This document shows, piece after piece, positions 1,319 through 2,749 of a DNA stretch of 64,000 bases. Within the stretch, counting starts at the first letter, position 1. Each line of letters starts with the position of its first letter. Under the pieces are notes generated by a model, which saw only the letters and a program-made list of their open reading frames with translations, did not search any database and was not told the DNA's origin. This stretch comes from Marispirochaeta aestuarii (GTDB lineage: Bacteria > Spirochaetota > Spirochaetia > JC444 > Marispirochaetaceae), in the NCBI RefSeq assembly GCF_002087085.1, contig NZ_MWQY01000012.1, positions 1 through 64,000 of the forward strand, written 5' to 3'. A program made the translations under genes and the position numbers.

Positions 1319-1406
1319 GCACAACGTCCCGGGAATATACGACGTTCGGCGTAAGCCGAATGTGGCGTAGCCCGGAACGAAGTGGAGCGTATATTCCCTG
1401 TTATAC
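1319..1406 (-). other. attC-like recombination site of an integron cassette
   Basis: Read on the minus strand, the 88-nt site starts with GTATAAC (1406-1400) and ends with GTTGTGC (1325-1319). Just inside these lie perfect 11-bp arms, GGGAATATACG at 1331-1341 and CGTATATTCCC at 1388-1398. The centre contains a further hairpin, TTCGGC-GTAA-GCCGAA (1345-1360). This R''-L''-stem-L'-R' layout and length are those of integron attC sites. The core triplets AAC and GTT are kept; the flanking core bases differ from the strict RYYYAAC/GTTRRRY consensus. The strongest support is that the extended inverse core GTCGTATAAC (minus strand, 1409-1400) is the exact complement of the cassette start at 1859-1850. 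Confidence 0.6.
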
Positions 1407-1858
1407 GACCGCGACAGCGGCAAGCACCTTCAGGTGCGTAGCGTATTTTTTGGGGCATAATACTACTGGAATTTTCCATATGCATTCTTCCAGTTATCTG
1501 CTATTTCAAAAAACTTCTCATATCCATTTTTTTTAATGTAATAAACAGCCTCTTTATATTTCCTGTATTTATAACCGTTTTTTGAGTACCACTCACCAAT
1601 AATATTGCAAGACTCTAACTCAGAACAATCTGCACAGGTGTCTTTTCCTTTATCTCTAAAACAACATAATTTAATTTTACATTTTGCCTTGTTTATATCT
1701 CGTTCACCTGTATCAAAACCAATTTTGCAACCTTTACAAACTCCTTCTAAAAAAGGTTTACATGTCTTGCAATATGCACCGCAGCATCCAGCATAACGAT
1801 TTGGATTCATTCTACCCCCCTACTTTATTCTTTATGCCCCAAGAAATATGTCGTATAA
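1325..1858 (-). mobile_element. Integron-type gene cassette carrying a DUF3795 gene
   Basis: The proposed cassette is 534 bp. It runs on the minus strand from the crossover base after G at 1859 to the G of the 3' core at 1325. It contains one gene, transcribed from the cassette start towards the attC-like site, about 50 nt from the start, which is the standard cassette arrangement. The ends also share a second inverted match, TTATGCCCCAA at 1832-1842 against TTGGGGCATAA at 1450-1460. Two small hairpins (AGGTG-type and CGCTGTCGCGG-type) sit between the gene and the inverse core. An alternative reading is a gene framed by long terminal inverted repeats from a non-integron element. Confidence 0.55.
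1463..1810 (-). CDS. DUF3795-family cysteine-rich small protein
   Basis: This encodes a 115-residue, lysine- and cysteine-rich protein. The N-terminus has CCGAYCKTCKPF followed by CKGCK, and a second cysteine group (CKIKLCC, CADCSELESC) sits in the middle. This pattern matches the DUF3795 family, small proteins presumed to bind metal through the cysteines; their function is unknown. A strong GGGGGG ribosome site precedes the ATG. The gene fills a cassette-like element that faces away from the adjacent tyrosine recombinase. From memory, DUF3795 genes occur in mobile cassettes elsewhere. Base composition is visibly more AT-rich than the core genes to the right, consistent with acquisition. Confidence 0.7.
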   Translation of the reverse strand: MNPNRYAGCCGAYCKTCKPFLEGVCKGCKIGFDTGERDINKAKCKIKLCCFRDKGKDTCADCSELESCNIIGEWYSKNGYKYRKYKEAVYYIKKNGYEKFFEIADNWKNAYGKFQ

Positions 1859-1927: not shown

Positions 1928-2749
1928 ATGGCTATGAACAGTACATTTTGTGACTCTTTGTTACAGAAGCTGAGGGAACACCTGCTTATGCGCAATTACT
2001 CTCCCCGCACGATCAAGGCGTATACCCGCTATTGCTCCGAATTCTGCACTTTCTGCCTGGATAATCCGTCCCTTGCGCGGGAGCAGAAGATTATCCGTTT
2101 TCTGAATACATACCCGGATCCCGCAACAAAAGCTGTTGCACGTTCAGCCCTAAAGTACCTGTATGCTAACATCCTTAAACTTCCGGCACCTGTTCTGCTG
2201 ACAAGAACCCGAAAAACCCGGAAACTACCGACTGTTTTAACCCGGGACCAGGTAGCAATGATTTTAAATACAATTCAAAACCCGAAACACCGTGCCATGA
2301 TCGCCATGATGTACGGGTCGGGACTGCGAGTCAGCGAGGTTGTCAAACTTAAAGTAGGAGATGTCAATCTGGCAAGAAACCGCATTCACGTACGTCAATC
2401 AAAAAACCTGAAAGACCGAATTACGGTTTTATCACCCTTATTGACGGATTATCTCAAGCTGATTACAAAAAACCGGCAGCCAAAAGAGTTTCTCTTTCAG
2501 ACCCAATGCAGTAACAGATATTCCGTAAGGACGCTCCAGACAATTTTCAAGCGGGCGCTTTCCAAATCCGGAATTTCCCTTGCGGCGTCCTGCCACAGCC
2601 TGCGACACTCCTTCGCCACAAGCCTGTTGGAAAGCGGTGTAGATATCCGCATTATCCAGGCTCAGCTGGGGCACTCAAACATCAAGACGACAATGCTATA
2701 TACACAGATTACCAGTGTAATAGAGGAATCCCTGTATTCGCCGCTTTAA
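1928..2749 (+). CDS. Tyrosine recombinase (phage integrase / XerC-like)
   Basis: This is a 273-residue site-specific recombinase that would cut and rejoin DNA through a phosphotyrosine. An N-terminal SAM-like core-binding domain (about 5-85, with YSPRTIKAYTRY) is followed by the catalytic domain. The full active-site set is visible: R134 (GSGLRVSE), K159 (QSKNLKDR), H223 and R226 (HSLRHSFAT), H249 (LGHSN), Y258 (MLYTQ). It occupies the place of an integron integrase, divergent from a cassette. It lacks the extra helix insertion between the Lys motif and HxLR that defines IntI proteins, and at 273 residues is shorter than IntI (about 320-340). No Shine-Dalgarno site precedes the ATG at 1928; a second ATG at 1934 is equally possible. 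The last three codons and the stop belong to a 63-nt direct repeat. Confidence 0.85.
   Translation: MAMNSTFCDSLLQKLREHLLMRNYSPRTIKAYTRYCSEFCTFCLDNPSLAREQKIIRFLNTYPDPATKAVARSALKYLYANILKLPAPVLLTRTRKTRKLPTVLTRDQVAMILNTIQNPKHRAMIAMMYGSGLRVSEVVKLKVGDVNLARNRIHVRQSKNLKDRITVLSPLLTDYLKLITKNRQPKEFLFQTQCSNRYSVRTLQTIFKRALSKSGISLAASCHSLRHSFATSLLESGVDIRIIQAQLGHSNIKTTMLYTQITSVIEESLYSPL

Follow-up and report, generated by a model that had tools for sequence, protein, structure and literature searches.

In canonical integrons, helix I2 of the integrase IntI docks bases that protrude from the short attC hairpin, and integron integrases are both defined and searched for by the extra domain thought to permit the use of such folded single-stranded sites. 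The literature describes helix I2 as an acquisition of the IntI ancestor, found nowhere else and with intermediates lacking (PMC7790495), and the IntI-specific domain that holds it is needed for canonical IntI activity according to Messier and Roy (2001), as cited in PMC3053210 and PMC9668308. Searches of the IntegronFinder type apply a two-profile rule, which combines PF00589 with the IntI-specific domain (PMC9668308), and attC clusters lacking integron-integrases are classified as CALIN (PMC9024848). In the literature searched, the scope of which left out preprints and most subscription papers, we found no earlier account of integrons whose integrases lack the IntI-specific domain.

Here, we analysed a 64,000-nt stretch of the Marispirochaeta aestuarii genome (hereafter, the window), which carries near its start what is very probably an integron platform, comprising a divergent integrase gene, an attI region, one complete cassette and the start of a second one (Table 1). 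The locus and its relatives resemble the canonical-IntI chromosomal integrons (V. cholerae 2a3v, IntI1, Treponema denticola) in possessing an integrase, attI, tandem cassettes, AAC/GTT cores and palindromic attC sites with a favoured folded bottom strand, as well as in gene orientation and cargo types, the likeness in divergent layout being limited to the clade of the window integrase. By contrast, the new platform has no I2 insert, its R arms extend over ~18 nt, compared with the 9–11 nt of head/tail complementarity in canonical cassettes (PMC2727003), its spacers measure 1 and 5 nt, and no single extrahelical G is found in the inner arms of the eight seed sites. Among the integron features tested, the IntI-specific domain is absent, whereas the others are present, except for the extrahelical base and a promoter, the scan for which gave no match. 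Taken together, the observations are, with high probability, best read as reflecting integrons in which I2-less integrases act on folded attC sites that are longer and more duplex-like.

The cassette, attI and attC of the window

Direct inspection bore out the core of the sequence-only reading, namely, that GTTATACGAC on the minus strand opens a 534-bp unit, which extends from G^TT to the next crossover, that GTCGTATAAC in its tail is the exact complement of this head, and that an 88-nt palindrome with AAC and GTT cores and 11-bp arms lies at the end of the unit. The complementarity is indeed exact over the proposed 10 bp but extends further, with 17 of 19 more bases pairing between TTATGCCCCAAAAAATACG and the head segment TTATGCCCCAAGAAATATG (1832–1850) past a 33-nt insertion in the tail. 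The cassette gene can be described as DUF3795-like, the Pfam match (E 0.02; 15.8 bits) falling below the cut-off of 22.6, and the core bases, said to be non-canonical, are so in the window, but this is largely a matter of species, because relatives show the canonical GTTAAGC/GCTTAAC at the same place. Contrary to what had been assumed, the cassette does not stand alone: R' is followed by a second, truncated one, which contains a 26-aa frame and a gene start (MTRTETKQFQYEIQAYQEDCVNNIVSLFESLRQK...) broken by the remnant of an IS256 copy. Pieces of the IS256 transposase occupy positions 61–648 and 724–1038, this broken copy lying at the contig start.

Table 1. Features of the integron-like locus, in coordinates of the window
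Feature	Position	Strand	Basis
Truncated second cassette with the start of a longer gene, interrupted by IS256 remnant	1091–1324 (left boundary approximate)	−	sequence after R' GTTGTGC
attC site, 88-nt palindrome	1319–1406	−	attC-like scans and covariance model
Complete gene cassette, 534 bp, bounded by GTT cores	1325–1858	−	exact head/tail complement
Cassette tail GTCGTATAAC, complementary to head	1400–1409	−	exact 10-bp complement of 1850–1859
Outer tail: 33-nt insertion with small hairpins, then TTATGCCCCAAAAAATACG	1410–1460	−	read from sequence
Cassette gene, 115 aa, DUF3795-like	1463–1810	−	ORF; Pfam below gathering score
Cassette head GTTATACGAC; its G belongs to attI	1850–1859	−	read from sequence
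attI region, integrase start to crossover; includes conserved TATAATGCGGRTAA	1860–1927	−	flank conserved with G003, G002
Short integron-type tyrosine recombinase, 273 aa, without IntI-specific insert	1928–2749	+	TIGR02249, 2a3v alignment, AF2

The attC site consists of R'' (GTATAAC, 1406–1400), a 1-nt spacer, an 11-bp arm (1398–1388), a bulge (about 1387–1365), a hairpin, the other 11-bp arm (1341–1331), a 5-nt spacer and R' (GTTGTGC, 1325–1319), and its inner arms pair perfectly. An 11-bp inverted repeat alone is not rare, with 7 matches in 64 kb (overlapping ones counted) and 0–5 in shuffles. The site was, however, the sole match to an attC-like scan of the first 12 kb (none in two shuffles) and to a stricter scan of the whole window (none in one shuffled window). 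It scores 80.2 bits against the covariance model described below, to the seed of which it belongs; an Rfam scan of the site gave no match. On its own, the integrated 88-nt site folds only slightly better than shuffled sequences do (z −2.1 and −2.8), and the fold signal comes instead from the circular form and from comparison. Within attI, a TATAAT at 1878–1873 is conserved in three genomes, and a consensus scan of attI found no match of the sigma-70 type.

A second attC of the new type is present elsewhere in the same genome (G000:C23:57089–57180; L206 10089–10180), near a contig end and beside a peptide-deformylase-like fragment. This contig end has 54 bp in common with the window start (1–54), inside an IS256-like stretch. 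Joining the broken array of the window to C23 through these 54 bp was considered and rejected, both contigs running in the same direction away from the shared stretch.

The short integrase and its phylogeny

The recombinase gene, located 69 bp from the cassette start in divergent orientation, had been passed over by the sequence-only reading, and with it the most interesting part of the locus, the absence of the IntI-specific domain. The best NCBIfam model for the 273-aa product is the TIGR02249 integron integrase, matched on both sides of the missing insert with 198.6 bits, which is under the cut-off of 265; PF00589 matches at 7e-41, and the catalytic residues R134, K159/K162, H223, R226, H249 and Y258 are kept. 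In the alignment with 2a3v, the structure of the V. cholerae integron integrase (IntI4/IntIA), query residues 177–201 face a gap at 178–245 of the chain, with the enzyme aligning on both sides, and the ~42 missing residues correspond to the IntI-specific domain with helix I2. The spacing between the KDR and HxLRH motifs is 61–67 aa in the short enzymes in which it could be measured, compared with 103 in IntI1 and canonical spirochaete IntIs, that of the window genome included; the insert being absent between these motifs, the region removed is the one called the IntI-specific domain. The AF2 model (pLDDT 91.9) has no helix between H170–180 and H200–214, and its nearest PDB structure is still 2a3v. 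Judged by these comparisons, the short integrase is a lineage close to canonical IntI that lacks the domain holding helix I2.

In a recombinase tree from which the columns of the insert were excluded, all 17 canonical IntIs constitute a single clade (100/100), which is neighboured by the window's clade of 12 short enzymes (94/91), the other short enzymes branching outside; short enzymes and IntI are set apart from XerC/XerD (100/99). The tree thus prefers IntI nested inside the short enzymes, but this is not secure, because the AU test does not reject a single clade of all short enzymes beside IntI (p 0.212). Consequently, the short enzymes may represent either a stage preceding I2 or a lineage that lost it. 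A more far-reaching scenario, which we consider conceivable but rather doubtful, is that the capture of cassettes from folded single-stranded sites preceded I2, that the short integrases are a surviving pre-I2 stage that gave rise to canonical IntI, and that part of the CALIN are complete short-enzyme integrons. The short enzymes share with XerC, XerD and XerA the length class and the lack of the I2 insert, and the longer duplex arms of the associated sites resemble dif-like core sites; they differ from XerC/XerD in grouping with IntI and in being associated with cassette arrays rather than with dif. In the window's clade, integrase and array are divergent, whereas in most of the other short-integrase loci both have the same orientation. 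The latter arrangement is the 'inverted' layout known from Treponema.

The attC type and its occurrence

Orthologues of the window integrase were identified in two genomes of the same genus (G002 and G003) and in one of the same family (G001). In all three, the integrase gene adjoins an attI boundary of the same kind, with a cassette that differs from locus to locus. The attI flank is conserved among the window genome (G000), G003 and G002 up to GTT, where the sequences diverge into different cassettes, and a cassette-type GTT boundary is found at the matching place in G001; in all four loci the short integrase is kept at the start of the array. Behind the G003 orthologue, the array contains at least nine clean attC sites, and its cassettes 1 and 4 are near-identical, each beginning exactly at GTT within a different context, which we count as suggestive of mobility. 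Tandem arrays were likewise found in G378, G384, G141 and other relatives, compared with one complete and one truncated cassette in the window. The cassettes carry genes for ParE/YoeB, PemK/MazF, antitoxin, GNAT, GFA and DUF1801 proteins, and for 24 of 26 cassettes the longest reading frame lies on the attC strand. Toxin-antitoxin, GNAT and GFA genes are usual integron cargo.

The sites share the layout R''-A-11 bp arm ... 11 bp arm-5 nt-R', and a covariance model built from eight seed sites matched 28 times in G003, twice in the window's genome and, overall, in 52 of 393 Spirochaetota genomes. Across 72 aligned sites, 14 pairs are 93.9% paired, with 213 double-change cells compared with 57 when shuffled; the alignment was fitted to the model, which favours structure, and sliding the partners by 1–3 columns destroys the covariation signal. 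A single extrahelical base in the L'' arm is absent from the 11-bp inner arms of the eight seed sites, and the spirochaete sites examined have in its place a bulge of 21–25 nt after the inner arm.

Within cassettes, heads match their own tails. For 28 cassettes shorter than 1.5 kb, the mean number of matches was 3.32 among the 4 variable core bases and 5.39 among the 8 outer ones, as opposed to 2.07 and 2.95 with shuffled tails, none of 2000 trials reaching the observed values; this result is not circular, because the covariance model uses neither head nor tail. The pairing extends to about 18 nt in 31 cassettes, a set drawn from pairs already showing a match and hence a measure of the extent of complementarity, not of its existence. 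A systematic departure occurs at position 11 in 25 of the 31, where the reverse-complemented head has T and the tail C, which corresponds to A.C in the top and G.T in the bottom strand. When the circular site was folded as single-stranded DNA, the bottom strand was the more stable in 31 of 31 (p 1.2e-6), with mean predicted folding energies of −35.7 and −30.9 kcal/mol for the bottom and the other strand, respectively. The head/tail rule also holds in two Flavobacteriales MAG loci with short integrases. Related platforms are present in many spirochaete genomes and at least two Bacteroidota MAGs. The identification of the window unit as an integron-type cassette, originally proposed from the unit itself, is backed by the neighbouring recombinase, the shared attI boundary, the array of the sister genome and the observance of the head/tail rule by about 30 cassettes.

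Of 36 short integrases, 16 have a genome-wide significant attC match within 12 kb, compared with none of 16 canonical IntIs and none of 18 other (Xer-like) recombinases. A more sensitive local search raised the count for short integrases to 24 of 36 (E <= 0.01), and several, if not many, of the 12 with no site detected nearby are at contig ends. About 76 of 296 Spirochaetota genomes score above 237 bits with the short-enzyme profile, Xer-like matches beginning near 223. In six genomes (G206, G256, G296, G338, G365 and G320), new-type attC matches occur, but no short integrase passed the thresholds applied.

Proposed mode of action and alternative explanations

The anatomy of the locus, the array with its fixed insertion point, the head/tail rule, the covariation and strand asymmetry of the sites, their association with short integrases and the absence of the insert are all properties of the sequences compared, and from them we infer recombination activity and a mode of substrate recognition for the short enzyme. 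Cassettes would be joined at G^TT, each ending in an attC the bottom strand of which would form a long hairpin, and the short integrase would recombine this folded strand with the double-stranded attI. Instead of docking by I2, it may use the longer paired arms, which measure ~18 bp on the outer side of the crossover and 11 bp on the inner side and would make the site more like a double-stranded core site. The unequal spacers (1 versus 5 nt) and the G.T pairs confined to the bottom strand might direct the choice of strand and discourage second strand exchange. On the other hand, the enzyme might be inactive on folded sites, because the IntI-specific domain is reported to be necessary in canonical IntI.

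A related alternative is that the array is the relic of a decayed canonical integron and the short integrase a nonfunctional deletion derivative of IntI. The presence of matches to TIGR02249 on either side of the missing insert would fit such an origin, and an old loss of the insert is compatible with the AU test; yet, the absence of the insert is common to dozens of intact reading frames, mostly 32–44% identical to the window's enzyme and with conserved catalytic residues, and the arrays are rich in sites that co-vary, which makes decay very unlikely. Somewhat less improbable, albeit still unlikely, is that the cassette was placed by a canonical IntI, the neighbouring recombinase being an unrelated enzyme of the Xer type. 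The window genome does encode a canonical 414-aa IntI (G000:C4:2826–4067), which aligns to 2a3v without the gap seen with the short enzyme and has its own array with a core, GTATAAC, resembling that of the window cassette (GTATAAC); G002 and G003 each hold a canonical IntI as well, and these enzymes could act in trans on cassettes of the window type. However, the C4 array is of a different attC type (about 170 nt, 3/3 spacers), the model found no match in the fetched flanks of canonical integrases (most only about 1.5 kb), and the short integrase stays at the array start in the four orthologous loci. Furthermore, the new-type sites are clustered with short integrases in genomes for which the search detected no canonical IntI; 39 of the 55 genomes searched have none at E 1e-45, and action in trans, possible for the window genome, is therefore unlikely as a general rule.

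The reading of the unit as a transposon or MITE-like element, with a gene framed by terminal inverted repeats, draws on the inverted repeats formed by cassette head and tail and on the adjacent IS256 copy, but it is hardly tenable. The palindrome lies wholly at one end of the unit, in arrays each head pairs with the tail of its own cassette across consecutive sites, and the ends are fixed at G^TT beside one shared attI with different cargo. The comparative loci thus refute the transposon-end reading: homologous loci with one and the same gene between these ends as transposon termini, which the sequence-only reading had named as evidence against a cassette, were not seen among the loci compared, in which the architecture frames different genes.

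If the platforms are indeed run by I2-less integrases, they would supply natural enzymes for testing the role ascribed to the extra domain and would point either to a route by which IntI evolved or to a substitute for I2. Current finders would then overlook integrons in Spirochaetota and perhaps in Bacteroidota. Arrays of the new type are what IntegronFinder would report as CALIN, provided that its attC model detects such sites; unlike in CALIN, an integrase is present here, but of a kind expected to escape the two-profile rule.

Several further observations concern the relatives. In the G003 array, four group II introns (L049 3178–3996, 5687–6504, 7647–8465 and 13279–14097, minus strand) are situated directly after R', and those examined start about 11 nt past it, consistent with attC-targeting introns; the position is the one reported for group IIC-attC introns of integrons, the G003 introns being known as group II only. 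In L018 (8821–10977) and L020 (10308–11630), the two Flavobacteriales MAG loci, the attC-like sites with the same head/tail rule lie downstream of short integrases whose N termini carry long extensions. The five-site array of L191 (G141:C136; 186–7135) faces the 3' end of the short integrase, unlike in the other loci. Finally, three near-identical genes for 303-aa tyrosine recombinases lie within 20 kb at G003:C1:1781003–1798399 (L202) and perhaps constitute a mobile element of their own.
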